From Natronorubrum sediminis (lineage in GTDB: Archaea; Halobacteriota; Halobacteria; Halobacteriales; Natrialbaceae): DNA of 64,000 nucleotides. A program made the position numbers and the translations under genes. Every line of letters begins with the position of its first letter. Positions within the stretch are counted from its first letter, which is position 1. The stretch covers positions 850,748 to 914,747 of the forward strand of contig NZ_FNWL01000002.1 of the NCBI RefSeq assembly GCF_900108095.1, given 5' to 3'. Below the pieces are notes generated by a model. It had not been told where the DNA came from and made no database searches. It saw only the letters and a program-made list of their open reading frames with translations. Positions 43,699 through 50,781 of this stretch are shown in pieces.

Positions 43699-46600
43699 TT
43701 AGCCGAGAGATTCGGCGGGCGCAGGGTCGTCTGCCGTGTCGGGCGATTCTGGTTCCGCTGGTGGATCGATAGGTGGGACGTCTTCAGGCGGTCCGTCGTC
43801 GGTCGGTACATCATCCGGTGGTCCGTCGTCTGGTCCGTCGTCATCCGGCACGTCGTCATCCGGCACGTCGTCATCCGGCACATCGATCGGCGGACCGTCA
43901 TCATCCGGTTCCTCGCCCGGCACGCCATCCGGCGGCACTTCCTCCGGTGGACCGACCTCGTCTTCTGGCACCTCGTCCGGAAGCTCCTCATCCGGTACCT
44001 CATCTTCCTCAGGCACCCCCTCGTCAGTGTCGTCGATCGCTTCGATCGTCACCGACGCTTCGTCGTCTTCGGTGGCCACCGCGTGCGTCGACTCGCCTTC
44101 GGGGAGCGTCGATTGGAACGCGACCGTCTCCGACGCGCCTTCCTCGAGTTCGAGTGGCTGCTCGTCGATCGTGTCACCGTCGACGCTGTAGGTCACCGTC
44201 TGGCTGCCGGCATCGTCGCCGACGTTCTCGATGGTCGCACTCACGTCGATAGTCTCTCCGGGCTCACCGGTTTCGGGTGCCTCGAGCGAACTCACGGCGA
44301 ACTCGGCTTCGCCGGGTTCGTCGACCACGACCGTCGTGGCGTCCGTGTCGTCCTCGCTCGCGACAGACGCGGTGTACTCGCCAGCCTCGAGATCGGCCGT
44401 CTCGGCCGTGAGGGTCACTTCTTCGCCGTCCTCTGGCTCGAGTGAGAGGTCGGTTTCGTCGACCAGGTCGCCCTCGAGCGCCAGTTCGATGTTCTGGGTG
44501 TCCTCGGCGTCGCCGACGTTCTCGACGGTGGCAGTAACCTCGAGTGGCTCACCCGGTTCGACAGGGTCGTTCGTGTCGACGATCTCCACACCGAATTCGG
44601 CTTCGCCGGGTTCCTCGACCGTTATCGTCGTCTCGTCGGCGTCGTCGTCGCTCGAAACCGTCACAGCGTACTCACCGGCTTCGAGATCGTCGGTCTCGGC
44701 CGAAAGCGTCACCTCCTCACCCTCCTCTGGCTCGAGTTCGAGGTCGGTCGCGTCGACGGGTTCGTCCTCGAGTGCCAGTTCGATCTCCTGTTCACCCGCA
44801 TCGTCGCCCACGTTTTCGATCGCGGCGTCGATCTCGAGTGGCTCACCCGGTTCGACGGGATCGTTCGTGTCGACGATCTCCACGTCGAACTCGGCTTCCT
44901 CGGGGTCATCGGGTGCAATCTCGCCCGCTGGATCCGTCGCGGCGGGCTCGACTGCGTCCTCGTCGTAGTCGTAGATGCTCATGTCGACGCCCCAGACGAG
45001 TCGCTCGTCGTCGTCTTCGGGCGTCCACTCGACCGTGAACGTCTCCGTTCCGGGCTCGAGTTCGCTTGGCGGTTCGTCGTCGGTCGTTCCCTCGAGGAAC
45101 TCGCTGCCGACGATGAGTTCGCCGTCGTTTGGATTCTCGTAGCCGAACGTCACCGCGATACTGTCGTCGTTCGCTTCGGTGTCTTCGACGGTGAGGTCTG
45201 GCAGATCGGGTCGGACCTCTTCGACGCACTCGCTCGCGTCGGGGTTCGGGTGGTTGATCTCGCCCGGCACCGCATCTGGCGAGGAGAAGCCCGTAATCGC
45301 CGCGCCGAAGTCACCTTCGGGGACCGTCACGGTCGCACCGTCTGCCGTCTCCTCGACGGTGAACTCGTCGCCGGTTTCGTAGGTGATCGTGCCCTCGAGC
45401 GGTTCTTCGGTGTCCTCGCCGACCGTGATCGCGTACTCGCCGAGCGTGTTTCCAATGCCACTCGACTCGTAGAACGAGGTCGCGACGATAATCGTATCGC
45501 CGTCCTCGAACGAGCCGGTCACCTCGGCTTGCGTGCAGTCGACGAACGTCGCCTCGAACGGCTCCGTGTCGTCGTCGACGGTGTACTCGACCGTTTCGGA
45601 CGCGAGGACGCCGTCGTCAGTTTCGTTATCGTCTGTCTCGTCGTCAGCCGTCTCCGTTTCCGTATCCGTCTCGAGGTCGGTGTCCGCAGCCTCTTCGTCA
45701 TCGTCTGCACCGTCGGCCGCCTCGAGAGCGACCTCGAGCGTGGCGTCCTCCTCGAGCGGTGGCTCGAGGTCGATCGATTCTGGACCGACGGAGTCGTTCG
45801 CCTCGAACGCCTCGCTTTCACCCAGTTGCTCGCCGTCGTCGTCGCTCACGGTGAGTGCGAACGGAACGTCGGCGCTCGCTTCGTCGACCACGAGCGAGTC
45901 ACCCTCGCCCGTCTGGTCGCTCACCTCGAGAGTCGCCTCGGGGTCGGGGTCGGGTGGCTCATCCTCGAGTTCGTACTCGATCGAGTCGGTGGCGAGTTCC
46001 TCGCCCTCGTCGTCGACGACGGCCACGTCGACGATGGTGTCGTTCTCGATCGGTGGCTCGAGCGCGAGCGCGAAGTCGGTCTGCGTGTCGTTCGCGTCGA
46101 AGCGTTCGCTCTCGACCTGTTCGTCGTCGTACTCGGCCGTGACGGCGAAGTCCGTGTCAGCGCCTGCCTCGTCGACGACGAGCGTCTCGCCGTCACCCGT
46201 CTGATCGCTCACCTCGAGAACGGCCTCGGGATCCGGATCGTCGACCTCCTCGACCGTCACGAGTGCCGTGTCGAGCACCGGCGCGCCGTTCGGCGTCACG
46301 TACGGTTCGTCCTCCACGCCGTCAGACGCCGCGTACTCGAACGAGCCGTCGTCGGTGGTATCGTGGTGAGCCACCGCGACGAGCGTCTGGTCGTCCTCGA
46401 GTGGCTCCTCGAGGTCGATTTCGACGTCCGCGTGCTCGCCGGACTCGAGGAACTCCGAGACGCCGAGGACGGCGTCCGGATCGGCCACCGAATCGCCGGC
46501 GTAGATCGCGACGAAGCCGCCTTCGGAGAGTTCGACGCTGTCGACGACGACGCGTTCGCCGTCCTCGCGCTCTTGATCGGCGAAGGTGATCGATGCCTCG

Positions 46601-48288
46601 CCCTCGAGTTCGTCGATCACTTCGATTCGTTGCTCGAGTTCGATCTCGACGTACTGGGCGAGTTCGACGCCGTCGTCGATTCCTTCGGCGATGGCGTATG
46701 CGGTCGCGTCGCTCGCCGTGTCCTGCGTGAGCACCTGCAGTTGCGTGATGCTGATCTGTTGGTACTGGACGACCTTCGCAGTCTCCTGGCAGGCGCTGCT
46801 CGCGGCGATCTGTAGCTGTTCGACGGTCGCCTCCTGGTGTTGGACCAGAACGCCGCTCGCGCTGCCGGTCGCGAGTTTCTGGACCTGCGTGACGTCGACG
46901 ACCTGTTGTTGGACGACCGCGCCCTCGCCCGCACCGAACGCCGCGGCCTGAATCTGCTCGACTTCGACGACTTGCTCCTGTATCGCGCCTTCGATCGACC
47001 CTTCGGCGGCACCGACCGCAGCATACTGCAACTGCGAAATCGACACCTCCTGTTGCTGGACGAGGACGCCGCCCGCAGCCCCGTCAGCCGCGGCCTGGAC
47101 CTGCTCGACGGTCGCCTCCTGACTCTGGGAGATCGATCCCTTCGCCCCACCGAAGGAGGCTTCCTGAATCTGCGTGATCGAGACCCGCTGGACCTGCTCG
47201 ACGCTCACCGTCTGCACCTGCTTCAACGCGCCCGCGCTCGCGCCATGGGCCGCGGATTGGGTCTGCTCGACGCTCACCTCCTGTTGCTGGACGAGTGCGC
47301 CCTTCGCGCCGCCCGTCGCGGCCTTCTGGACTTGCTTGATGTCCACGCGTTGTTCTTGCTCGACGTCGATCCGCTGATCCTGCTCGAGCGCCGTTTCGGT
47401 CGAGCCGTCGAGCGCACCCGCCGACGCCCCCGCCGCGGCGTGTTGGACGTGCTCGAGCGTGACCTGCTGGCGCTGTTCGGCCGTGAGCTGTTGATGTTGC
47501 TCGAGGACGCCATAAGAGGCACCCTGTGCGGCTTCCTGTATCTTGGGCTTCTCGTCAATTTCCTTCTCGCCGGCCTCGGCGGCGGCACCGGCAGCGCCGC
47601 CGAAGGTCGCGACCTGAATCTGTTCGACGGCAACACGCTGTTCTTGTGCGAGCGCGCCGTGTGTCGCACCCCACGTCGCCGCCTGCATCTGGCTCGCCTC
47701 GACCGTCTGGTGTTGGGCGAGCGCGCCGTCGGTCGACCCGCCGACGGCAGCCTGAATCTGCTCGACGTCGACCCGCTGTTCTTGCATTAGCGAGCCGTGA
47801 ACCGCACCTTTCGCCGCCTCCTGGACCTGTTCGGCCTCGGCGTCTTGATGTTGGGCCGCCGACTCGCTCGCCGCCTCGAGTGCGGCGTCTCGCTGTTCTT
47901 GACTCACCTCGACGCCCTGCGATTGGGCCAGTTCGACGCCTTCGTCGATGCCGTCCTCGACGGCGTCATCGTCGGCGTCGGTGTCGATGTCGTCCCCATC
48001 ATCGGCGTCGTCTCCATCGTCCGTCTCAGCTCCATCGTCAGTGTCGTCCGTCTCGTCGACACCGTCGATTTCGACGGGGTCGTCTGTGTCGTCCTGTGCG
48101 AACGATGTCGGTGTCGCCGTCAGGTCACCGGCGTCAGCGTCGATCGCTCCAGCATCCGAACTGTCGGCGGCTTCACCGTCTGCAAACGGCGACACACTGC
48201 CGCTGATGACGGGCATCGCCAGCACGCTCGTCACCATCAAAAACGCGACGACGAGCACCGCCCCTGCCACACCTCGCTCACCAGTCAT
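43699..48288 (-). CDS. Giant surface protein with Gln/Gly/Ala repeats, DUF7282-like and CARDB domains
   Basis: A 1,529-residue protein. An N-terminal hydrophobic segment (residues 7-30) serves as signal or anchor. Next are an acidic linker (about 64-112), a repeat array (155-516, about 14 copies of a roughly 23-residue unit), three DUF7282-like beta domains (about 563-680, 686-772, 782-880), a further beta region with a Cys-containing segment, three CARDB beta-sandwiches of about 97 residues (roughly 1135-1430) and a Pro/Asp tail (1430-1529). No lipobox and no PGF-CTERM signal is visible, so anchoring is by the N-terminal helix or secretion. CARDB and DUF7282 are typical of haloarchaeal surface adhesins. 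The repeat array is described separately. No operon partners: bioY is divergent, the small gene convergent. Confidence 0.85.
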   Translation of the reverse strand: MTGERGVAGAVLVVAFLMVTSVLAMPVISGSVSPFADGEAADSSDAGAIDADAGDLTATPTSFAQDDTDDPVEIDGVDETDDTDDGAETDDGDDADDGDDIDTDADDDAVEDGIDEGVELAQSQGVEVSQEQRDAALEAASESAAQHQDAEAEQVQEAAKGAVHGSLMQEQRVDVEQIQAAVGGSTDGALAQHQTVEASQMQAATWGATHGALAQEQRVAVEQIQVATFGGAAGAAAEAGEKEIDEKPKIQEAAQGASYGVLEQHQQLTAEQRQQVTLEHVQHAAAGASAGALDGSTETALEQDQRIDVEQEQRVDIKQVQKAATGGAKGALVQQQEVSVEQTQSAAHGASAGALKQVQTVSVEQVQRVSITQIQEASFGGAKGSISQSQEATVEQVQAAADGAAGGVLVQQQEVSISQLQYAAVGAAEGSIEGAIQEQVVEVEQIQAAAFGAGEGAVVQQQVVDVTQVQKLATGSASGVLVQHQEATVEQLQIAASSACQETAKVVQYQQISITQLQVLTQDTASDATAYAIAEGIDDGVELAQYVEIELEQRIEVIDELEGEASITFADQEREDGERVVVDSVELSEGGFVAIYAGDSVADPDAVLGVSEFLESGEHADVEIDLEEPLEDDQTLVAVAHHDTTDDGSFEYAASDGVEDEPYVTPNGAPVLDTALVTVEEVDDPDPEAVLEVSDQTGDGETLVVDEAGADTDFAVTAEYDDEQVESERFDANDTQTDFALALEPPIENDTIVDVAVVDDEGEELATDSIEYELEDEPPDPDPEATLEVSDQTGEGDSLVVDEASADVPFALTVSDDDGEQLGESEAFEANDSVGPESIDLEPPLEEDATLEVALEAADGADDDEEAADTDLETDTETETADDETDDNETDDGVLASETVEYTVDDDTEPFEATFVDCTQAEVTGSFEDGDTIIVATSFYESSGIGNTLGEYAITVGEDTEEPLEGTITYETGDEFTVEETADGATVTVPEGDFGAAITGFSSPDAVPGEINHPNPDASECVEEVRPDLPDLTVEDTEANDDSIAVTFGYENPNDGELIVGSEFLEGTTDDEPPSELEPGTETFTVEWTPEDDDERLVWGVDMSIYDYDEDAVEPAATDPAGEIAPDDPEEAEFDVEIVDTNDPVEPGEPLEIDAAIENVGDDAGEQEIELALEDEPVDATDLELEPEEGEEVTLSAETDDLEAGEYAVTVSSDDDADETTITVEEPGEAEFGVEIVDTNDPVEPGEPLEVTATVENVGDAEDTQNIELALEGDLVDETDLSLEPEDGEEVTLTAETADLEAGEYTASVASEDDTDATTVVVDEPGEAEFAVSSLEAPETGEPGETIDVSATIENVGDDAGSQTVTYSVDGDTIDEQPLELEEGASETVAFQSTLPEGESTHAVATEDDEASVTIEAIDDTDEGVPEEDEVPDEELPDEVPEDEVGPPEEVPPDGVPGEEPDDDGPPIDVPDDDVPDDDVPDDDGPDDGPPDDVPTDDGPPEDVPPIDPPAEPESPDTADDPAPAESLG
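43836..43880 (-). repeat. Tandem 15-base repeat in surface-protein tail
   Basis: Three perfect consecutive copies of CGTCGTCATCCGGCA encode repeated VPDDD in the Pro/Asp-rich end of the surface protein. It is a length-variable type of site. Confidence 0.8.
46741..47826 (-). repeat. Array of about fourteen 23-residue Gln-rich repeats
   Basis: The unit is (I/V/L)QxAAxGAxxGALxQxQxVxVEQ. Core copies are 23 residues; others are 25-26, 31 or 39. Copies 5 and 8 are 31 residues, copy 6 is 39, i.e. steps of 8 made by adding VQRVSITQ-like elements. Conserved Ala/Gly face and Gln/Val face suggest a stacked strand or helix-strand repeat such as a solenoid. Confidence 0.85.
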
Positions 48289-48716
48289 GGCTCGAGTCTC
48301 CCCGCTGTCCCGCTCGCGAACCCAGCGCCCGTCGGCTCCGGCTGTCGCGGCTGTCGCTCCCGATGCGCCCCATCGAACCCGTGATCGTCTCTCATTGTCA
48401 CACTCTACCCTGGTTCTCTGACAGCGTGGCGAACGCGTGCTTAAGCTACCCCGGTCGTTTCAGTTAGGTGGCTGGCACAATCGCCCATTACGGCCCCCGA
48501 GACAGCCGAAATCACTCGAAAAAGCACATCCGAGGGAGACTGATAACAGTCGTCGAGGGGCTCGTGACAGTACTCCCACCAGACACGTGTCGACGGGAAT
48601 TGGTGTCTTTCAAGTGGCTATTCGACCACCTGGATCGGACTCGAGACGACAGAATTTCACCGATCACACATCTCGGAAACCGAAGTGTTGAACTTGGTTT
48701 ACGAGAGAGGACGGCC
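48289..48716. other. Promoter region between surface protein and bioY
   Basis: 428 bases. On the bioY side is the BirA-type dyad (48673-48704). On the other side, a GCTTAAGC palindrome at 48439-48446 could be a promoter element for the surface gene. In-frame upstream extension of bioY to about 48468 is possible but lacks membrane-protein character. Confidence 0.5.
48673..48704. promoter_or_regulatory. BirA-type biotin operator upstream of bioY
   Basis: TCGGAAACC (48673-48681), 14 bases, GGTTTACGA (48696-48704): an inverted repeat with one mismatch in nine. The arm sequence and the 14-base spacing match the published BirA box pattern, TTGTAAACC-N14/15-GGTTTACAA. It lies 13 bases before the bioY ATG (48717), the right place for repression by biotinoyl-AMP-bound BirA. 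Confidence 0.75.
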
Positions 48717-49304
48717 ATGGAAACTGAACAGGCTTCGGTGGACCTCGTCGAGGGCGACGTGGTTCGTCAGTTCGCTCGAGCGGCGGTACTCGCCGCGTTG
48801 CTCGGTGCCGTCGCTCCGATCGCGATTCCGTTGCCGCTGTCGCCAGCGCCAGTCACCTTGCAGGTACTGTTCGTCTTCCTCGCTGGCCTCGTTCTGGGGC
48901 CGGTCTGGGGGACGATTTCGATCCTCTTGTACCTCACCGCAGGGGCGATCGGATTGCCGGTCTTCTCGGGGCTCGAGGCCGGTCTCGGAACGTTGTTCGG
49001 CCAGACGGGGGGCTTCCTCTGGTCGTATCCACTCGCCACCGCCCTGATCGGACTGATCGTCCACCGCGGGACGAGCCTGCGCGATCCGGCCGCCGTGGCG
49101 CTACCGACCGTGATCGTCGCACTCGTCGCCGCGACGGTTCTCATCTACGCGATGGGTGCCGCCTACGCGGCCTGGCTCTTGGAACTCGAGGCCTGGGAAG
49201 CGATCGTCACCTTCGTGCTCTTTTTCGTCCCCGGAGAGCTACTCAAGATGGCCGCTGCGATTGCCATCGTCAGAAGTGGCCGCCTCGAGCCGATTCAATC
49301 GTGA
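48717..49304 (+). CDS. bioY: Biotin ECF transporter S component BioY
   Basis: A 195-residue membrane protein with about six helices. PLPLSPAPVTLQVLFVFLAG and the GLPVFSGLEAGLGTLFGQTGGFL stretch are BioY hallmarks that bind biotin. Works with BioM (ATPase) and BioN (transmembrane coupler), coded directly downstream. ATG 48717 is used; the BirA-type dyad immediately in front indicates biotin repression. Confidence 0.93.
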   Translation: METEQASVDLVEGDVVRQFARAAVLAALLGAVAPIAIPLPLSPAPVTLQVLFVFLAGLVLGPVWGTISILLYLTAGAIGLPVFSGLEAGLGTLFGQTGGFLWSYPLATALIGLIVHRGTSLRDPAAVALPTVIVALVAATVLIYAMGAAYAAWLLELEAWEAIVTFVLFFVPGELLKMAAAIAIVRSGRLEPIQS

Positions 49305-49344: not shown

Positions 49345-50049
49345 ATGATCGAATTCGACTCCGTCTCCCACGCCTTCGACGACGTCACCGTCCTCTCTGA
49401 CGTCTCGCTATCGATCGACGACGGGACGTTCGTCGTCCTCGCGGGAGCCAACGGCAGCGGCAAGACGACGCTCTTGCGTCACTGCAACGGCCTCCTGTCC
49501 CCGGAGTCGGGCACCGTGCTCGTCGACGGAACGCCCGTCGAAGACGACCTGATCGGTGCCCGCTCGAGCGTCGGCATGGTCTTTCAACACCCGCGGGATC
49601 AGTTCGTCGCCGCGACGGTCGGTGCCGACGTCGCCTTCGGCCCCGAAAATCTCGGCCTCTCGCGCGAGGAGATCGATCGCCGGGTCGAGGGTGCACTCGA
49701 GGCGGTCAACCTCGGCGGTCGCGAAGACGAACGGATCGAGCACCTCTCGGGCGGCGAGCAATCACGCGTCGCCATCGCGGGCGCACTCGCGATGAATCCG
49801 ACTCACCTCGTCCTCGACGAACCGTTTACTGGCCTCGACGCACCCGCCCGCCGATCCGTGCTCGCTCGCCTCGAGTCGCTCGTCGACGACGGGACGGGCG
49901 TCCTGCTCGCGACCCACGACCTGCGGGACGTGCGCGAACTCGCCGACCGAATCGTCGCCATGCGCGACGGCCGGGTTGTCGTGGACGGCCACCCCGACGC
50001 TGCACTCGCGGACCTCGCCGCACTCGAGGTGCGCGTTCCCGATCGGTAA
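49345..50049 (+). CDS. bioM: Biotin ECF transporter ATP-binding protein BioM
   Basis: A 234-residue ABC ATPase: Walker A AGANGSGKTT, Q-loop GMVFQHPRDQFVA, signature LSGGEQSRVAIAGAL, Walker B LVLDEPFTGLD, switch His in ATHDLRDV. It follows bioY and precedes bioN with short gaps, the standard BioMNY order here reversed to Y-M-N. ATG 49345 is preferred to an earlier frame extension because the ATPase strand begins there. Confidence 0.92.
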   Translation: MIEFDSVSHAFDDVTVLSDVSLSIDDGTFVVLAGANGSGKTTLLRHCNGLLSPESGTVLVDGTPVEDDLIGARSSVGMVFQHPRDQFVAATVGADVAFGPENLGLSREEIDRRVEGALEAVNLGGREDERIEHLSGGEQSRVAIAGALAMNPTHLVLDEPFTGLDAPARRSVLARLESLVDDGTGVLLATHDLRDVRELADRIVAMRDGRVVVDGHPDAALADLAALEVRVPDR

Positions 50050-50076: not shown

Positions 50077-50781
50077 ATGCTCACCTACGACCCCGACGAC
50101 ACGTTCGCCCACCGACTCGATCCGCGGTCCAAACTGGCCGTCCAGATCGGATTCGCAGCGACCGCGCTGGCTCACACCAGCCTGCGCGCACTGCTCGCGC
50201 TGAGTGTCGTGACGGCGATTATTCTGCTCGTCGCTCGCGTCCCCGTCCTCGAGGCGCTCTCCGCCTATCGGTTCGCGCTGGTCTTTCTGGTACTCGCGCC
50301 GCTAATCGCTGGCCTCACCCTCGGCTCGCCGTGGTTCGATCTCGCAGACGCCAACGACTCGGCTCGAGCGAGCTACCGGGTGCTCCTCATCTTGCTCGTC
50401 AGTGCCGCCTACATCCGTTCGACGCCGGTCCGAGCCTCTCGAGCGGCAATTCAACGCACGATTCCCGGAAAACCGGGCCAGATACTCGGAATCGGCGTCT
50501 CGCTCGTCTTTCGATTCCTGCCGGTCATCCGAGGCGACCTCCGAACGATCCGCGACGCCATGGCGGCCCGACTGGGCGGACAACGACGCGTCGTCGACCG
50601 CGCCAGCACGCTCGGAATTCTCGGGCTCACGTGGGCGTTCGACCGCGCGGACAGGCTCGCACTCGCCATGCAGGCACGCTGTTTCGCCTGGAATCCGACG
50701 CTGCCGCCGCTCTCGTTTTCCCGAACGGACTACGTCGCCCTCGCGGTCGCCGTCGGATTCGGACTGTCCGCGGTCATCTGA
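50077..50781 (+). CDS. bioN: Biotin ECF transporter transmembrane component BioN
   Basis: A 234-residue CbiQ/EcfT-type protein with about five to six membrane helices. The charged coupling region RASRAAIQRTIPGKPGQIL and ADRLALAMQARCF (EcfT ARG-like motif) contact the ATPase. It starts 27 bases after bioM and ends 3 bases before the convergent MOSC gene. Confidence 0.9.
   Translation: MLTYDPDDTFAHRLDPRSKLAVQIGFAATALAHTSLRALLALSVVTAIILLVARVPVLEALSAYRFALVFLVLAPLIAGLTLGSPWFDLADANDSARASYRVLLILLVSAAYIRSTPVRASRAAIQRTIPGKPGQILGIGVSLVFRFLPVIRGDLRTIRDAMAARLGGQRRVVDRASTLGILGLTWAFDRADRLALAMQARCFAWNPTLPPLSFSRTDYVALAVAVGFGLSAVI

Follow-up and report, generated by a model that had tools for sequence, protein, structure and literature searches.

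The inverted repeat TCGGAAACC-N14-GGTTTACGA before the bioY gene of Natronorubrum sediminis is predicted, with a probability of about 0.9, to be an operator on which BirA loaded with biotinyl-AMP would block the assembly or the firing of the initiation complex. The earlier note had proposed a BirA-type operator here, a reading supported by the helix-turn-helix (HTH) of the genome's BirA, by a second dyad at bioB and by the loss of the dyad where the HTH is lost, besides the sequence itself, its conservation and its genome-wide restriction to biotin genes. At the sequence level, the bioY dyad has every feature of a BirA operator that was tested.

The dyad and its distribution in Halobacteria

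The window, that is, the whole stretch of 64,000 nucleotides analyzed, corresponds to G000:C2:850748-914747, where G000 is the window's own genome (3.78 Mb). Its dyad was confirmed at window positions 48673-48704, and the gap between the right arm and the bioY ATG (48717) is 12 bases, instead of the 13 previously counted. The bacterial BirA box is described as TTGTAAACC-[N14/15]-GGTTTACAA (PMC545781, excerpt). The arms of the dyad are identical to this box at 15 of 18 positions and its 14-nt spacer is one of the two lengths allowed (14 or 15 nt), so that the likeness claimed for both arms and spacing holds. This is the top BirA-box score in the 64-kb window (runner-up, 13/18, spacings 13-16); among 60 first-order Markov windows none reached 15/18, and scores of at least 14/18 appeared at 0.07 per window.

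Judged from sequence, bioY and the two genes downstream of it (Table 1) constitute a bioYMN-type operon. A putative BioYMN locus has been noted in the biotin auxotroph Natrialba magadii, with no discussion of its control in the excerpt of that paper (PMC3403918). Divergently from bioY, an open reading frame of 1529 aa (window 43699-48288, minus strand) with an abundance of Q/E-containing repeats and acidic low-complexity stretches starts 428 bases before the bioY ATG.

Table 1. Features of the bioY promoter region and operon (window coordinates).
Feature	Position	Strand	Basis
Operator left arm TCGGAAACC	48673..48681	.	Sequence; arm kept upstream of bioY in the class
Operator spacer, 14 nt	48682..48695	+	BRE-like GAAG and TATA-like TTGAA inside; putative promoter role
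BRE-like GAAG in spacer	48682-48685	+	Spacer columns 10-13 conserved, 84 aligned sites
TATA-like TTGAA in spacer	48688-48692	+	25-29 nt before bioY ATG; columns 16-20 conserved, 84 sites
Operator right arm GGTTTACGA	48696..48704	.	Sequence; also kept upstream of bioY in the class
bioY, biotin-binding S component of ECF transporter	48717..49304	+	PF02632, E 3e-37
bioM-like ECF ATPase	49345..50049	+	PF00005, E 1.6e-30; TIGR04520, E 2e-66, below its cut-off
bioN-like ECF T component	50077..50781	+	PF02361 CbiQ, E 5.1e-15

A search for the class consensus TCGKMAACC-N14-GGTTKACGR that tolerated a single mismatch gave two sites in G000, one before bioY and the other at the start of bioB (G000:C2:91478-91509); the earlier note had advised looking for the same dyad before other biotin genes, and here it was found. 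In this genome bioB heads the cluster bioB-bioU-bioF-bioD, of which bioB and bioD pass the NCBIfam cut-offs, and BioU and BioF are strong matches yet below them. A looser pattern, AAACC-N13-16-GGTTT, matched seven places in G000, the majority apparently intragenic, and gave way to the full arms.

Whole-genome searches of 79 Halobacteria genomes with the same tolerance gave 91 sites in 68 genomes, all 91 at biotin-related genes, the location of a BirA box: 55 before bioY, 34 at bioB, one at bioU and one at an acyl-CoA carboxylase alpha subunit. The bioY and bioB places were taken from searches for those genes, and the two remaining sites were assigned by reading the open frames: one lies just upstream of a frame closely like BioU (G129), the other just upstream of a frame like the carboxylase alpha subunit and beside a carboxyltransferase-like one (G370). 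The reversed pattern, used as control, had a match in 0/30 and 1/49 genomes. Among 80 genomes examined, bioB exceeded its cut-off in 40, all with the dyad at the bioB start (34 at no more than 1 mismatch, an exact one in G131, and five weaker ones with 12-13 of 14 positions at the same place). As a separate observation, the bioB match in G123 (G123:C10:39509-40242) is split between two frames, its two pieces overlapping and the first preceded at 58 bases by a dyad with 2 mismatches; the gene is possibly decaying or mis-assembled.

BioY is present in 369 of 391 Halobacteria genomes. When 91 bioY upstreams were read individually, 84 had an N14 dyad with at least 11/14 core positions; the remaining seven comprised two N13 dyads (f9g50), four irregular elements (genus f7g39) and one blank (G359). 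Eight further upstreams, chosen among genomes whose bioY has no site at no more than 1 mismatch and excluding nine others of this kind (G029, G130, G204, G222, G016, G041, G058, G117, G044), added six dyads (two of them N13) and the blanks G318 and G136. All 34 named haloarchaeal bioY loci keep the N14 dyad with at least 12/14 core positions. These census counts are not independent events, since most of the genomes are related. A search with a more degenerate pattern and 2 mismatches matched 380/391 genomes and was excluded from the statistics because background matches appear: G000 then has 6 forward and 8 reverse matches, against two sites at the stricter threshold, and the bioY-less G050 has 2 forward and 2 reverse. 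G020 carries two bioY genes (L093, L094), each with its own dyad.

Two proposed promoter layouts

The aligned bioY sites give the consensus TCGTAAACC-N14-GGTT(T/G)ACG(A/G), and over the 84 of them the spacer keeps GAAG and TT-A(T/A); in 70 of the 84, the first ATG lies 12 or 13 nt past the right arm. In haloarchaea the BRE has been described as CGAAA and the TATA element as TTWT, with 72% of the protein-coding transcripts of Haloferax volcanii being leaderless (PMC4983044, excerpt). Given the BRE- and TATA-like bases of the spacer, the distance to the ATG and how common leaderless transcripts are in Haloferax volcanii, the bioY operator presumably sits on the BRE/TATA of a leaderless promoter, at about -44 to -13. 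The layout at bioB is another one: in 24 sites a TTAT-like box and CC--AA precede the operator, whose right arm begins on the final base of the start codon (RTG). There, the operator should come after TATA and run into the start codon, from about -21 to +10, covering the start site.

The proposed mechanism, in which binding by BirA, its ligand, the direction of control and the steric effect are all predicted, would run as follows. With plentiful biotin, BirA, at once biotin-protein ligase and repressor, would carry biotinyl-5'-AMP and dimerize, placing its two winged HTH domains on the two arms of the dyad. At bioY, the putative BRE and TATA are flanked by the two arms, and bound BirA would be expected to keep TBP/TFB off; at bioB, where the operator comes between TATA and the start codon, it would stop polymerase from loading or initiating. 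When biotin runs low, the operons for transport (bioYMN) and for synthesis (bioB-bioU-bioF-bioD) would both be released. For B. subtilis BirA, operator binding requires both biotin and ATP, and we infer by analogy with the E. coli and B. subtilis proteins that biotinyl-5'-AMP would drive dimerization and binding of the haloarchaeal BirA as well (PMC4016012, excerpt). The odds seem roughly even that a single bacterial-type, metabolite-sensing repressor acts in two modes on the eukaryote-like initiation machinery of the same archaeal cell, by TBP/TFB exclusion at bioY and by polymerase block at bioB.

BirA, natural controls and rival explanations

An HTH-bearing BirA was expected elsewhere in the genome, its absence being the case that would have spoken against the operator, and it is present. 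A PF03099 profile search of G000 gave two places, one of which (L002) was rejected as a second BirA, being a lipoate ligase; the other, G000:C2:756771-757712, is the sole biotin ligase, with an N-terminal HTH_11 (PF08279, E 9.9e-13), PF03099 and PF02237, all over cut-off. This composition (N-terminal HTH, BPL catalytic domain and BPL_C) is that of a Group II biotin-protein ligase. Its match to TIGR00122 birA_repr_reg, the biotin operon repressor domain (E 9e-14, 51.1 bits), is below the curated cut-off of 70, and its PDB relatives include 1bia, 4wf2, 3rir and 3v7c, with chains named BirA in 1bia, 4wf2 and 3v7c. The recognition helix reads SRAAVWKQI, to be compared with that of E. coli BirA, which we take to be SRAAINKHI. 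In the printed stretch upstream of birA in G000, no dyad was found by eye.

An HTH is visible in 58 of 61 aligned BirA rows; G359 and a second copy in G094 are without it, and the row of G385 is in the wrong frame, its HTH part being matched in another. A co-variation between recognition helix and arm type (SRNAVW with GGTTGAC arms), suspected by eye, was dropped and nothing was deduced from it, because SRAAVW is found alongside either arm type and the comparison is confounded by relatedness. Some genomes hold, beside the HTH form, a second biotin ligase with most or all of the HTH part unmatched (G094:C1:848303-849076, G067, G246, G003, G081), and the second copies of G407 and G398 lie within frames of 751 and 813 aa. 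In G487 (L338), the biotin ligase domain is C-terminal in an open frame of 707 aa; the part upstream of it resembles, by look, a radical-SAM protein.

Genomes whose BirA has changed serve as natural controls. The dyad before bioY is absent in all five with an HTH-less BirA (G318 and G359, of genus f4g83, and G607, G413 and G487, among the other Halobacteriota) and in both with a changed recognition helix (G618 and G535, also other Halobacteriota), hence missing in 7/7. Of 20 bioY upstreams hand-picked from the 201 other-Halobacteriota genomes with bioY, 14 have a dyad that reaches at least 12/14 under degenerate scoring at spacings 13-15, although a pair of these, at 12/14, do no better than shuffles; the six dyad-less genomes have an HTH-less ligase in three cases, a changed-helix HTH in two and an intact helix in G526. 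Besides G526, the exceptions in the opposite direction are G136, with an intact HTH, no dyad at bioY and a dyad at bioB, and the four genomes of genus f7g39 (L079-L082; G128, G325, G053, G031), where the HTH is present and the element is irregular, its right half reversed in direction: in 4/4, TCGT(A/C)AACC is followed by 14 nt and then (G/A)GTAAACCA, the halves forming a direct repeat about 22 bp apart and farther than usual from the bioY ATG.

Full-length BirA is missing in all of the 14 bioY-less genomes searched in genera g47, g54, g27 and g28, and none of the 14 has a site within 2 mismatches of TCGTMAACC-N14-GGTTKACGA; the bioY-less G050, G079, G069, G001, G007, G002 and relatives have no full-length BirA. 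The pattern in these bioY-less, BirA-less genera suggests the loss of biotin use as a whole. G131 is without bioY, yet retains BirA and the exact dyad at bioB. In G108 and G314, BirA is present and neither bioY nor a site was detected; the G108 BirA (L346) has a changed recognition helix, SRTAVRRAV.

Among rival explanations, the dyad might belong to a different biotin-gene regulator, one like BioR or BioQ, its likeness to the BirA box being fortuitous; BirA as the protein on the dyad is a prediction. The BioR and BioQ boxes are unlike the BirA box, and the arms equal the bacterial BirA box, while bioY is kept and the dyad gone in the five genomes with HTH-less BirA, which makes this alternative very unlikely. 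A pure core-promoter feature, with BRE/TATA and flanks kept for initiation rather than control, would fit the BRE- and TATA-like bases of the bioY spacer at the right distance from the ATG; at bioB, however, TATA is a separate element upstream of the arms, which reach into the start codon, and G318 and G359 retain bioY without the dyad, so we regard this explanation as even less probable than a second regulator.

Short palindromes are common in G+C-rich DNA and the 2-mismatch pattern has its background matches, as a chance origin would have it. Nonetheless, random windows never gave a 15/18 match (0 of 60), the N14 dyad is kept in 34/34 named relatives and all 91 sites from the 79 genomes are at biotin-related genes; chance, refuted by the conservation in relatives, has a negligible likelihood. 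The BirA operator is thus the preferred reading.

Relation to known systems and significance

The haloarchaeal dyads share with the bacterial BirA operators (E. coli bioO; B. subtilis bioO, yuiG and yhfU) the 9-bp inverted arms TTGTAAACC/GGTTTACAA, the location at genes for biotin synthesis and bioY-type transport, and an HTH-bearing BirA in the genome. They differ in the haloarchaeal consensus given above, in the spacer, which is 14 against the N16 that separates the same arms in E. coli bioO, and in the promoter, the bioY operator presumably lying on an archaeal BRE/TATA rather than on a sigma-70 promoter as in bacteria. Group I biotin ligases, an example being the hypothetical biotin ligase of 235 aa in PDB 1wnl, have the catalytic and C-terminal domains in common with the G000 BirA, but are without the HTH.

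Rodionov, Mironov and Gelfand (2002, Genome Res 12:1507) state in their title that the BirA signal is conserved in eubacteria and archaea, and their abstract is said to link the HTH to the sites. The archaeal BirA regulon was already predicted in 2002; as compared with that prediction, the present analysis offers a census of one class, the sites at bioB, bioU and the carboxylase, the HTH-loss controls and the two promoter layouts, the latter being the fresher part. The extension of BirA signals to archaea is also discussed in the available excerpt of PMC3199775. In the titles and abstract openings surveyed, with most subscription papers outside the scope of the search, none reports that an archaeal BirA operator was tested by experiment.

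BirA appears to be a rare case of a regulator whose DNA signal is common to bacteria and archaea. With its defined sites, its natural controls that lack the HTH and its genetically tractable hosts, a regulon spanning the class opens a prediction two decades old to direct testing, and repression modes on archaeal core promoters can be cleanly compared between the two promoter layouts. If the two modes of repression are real, the two operator layouts could set a built-in order in which uptake and synthesis of biotin are shut off.
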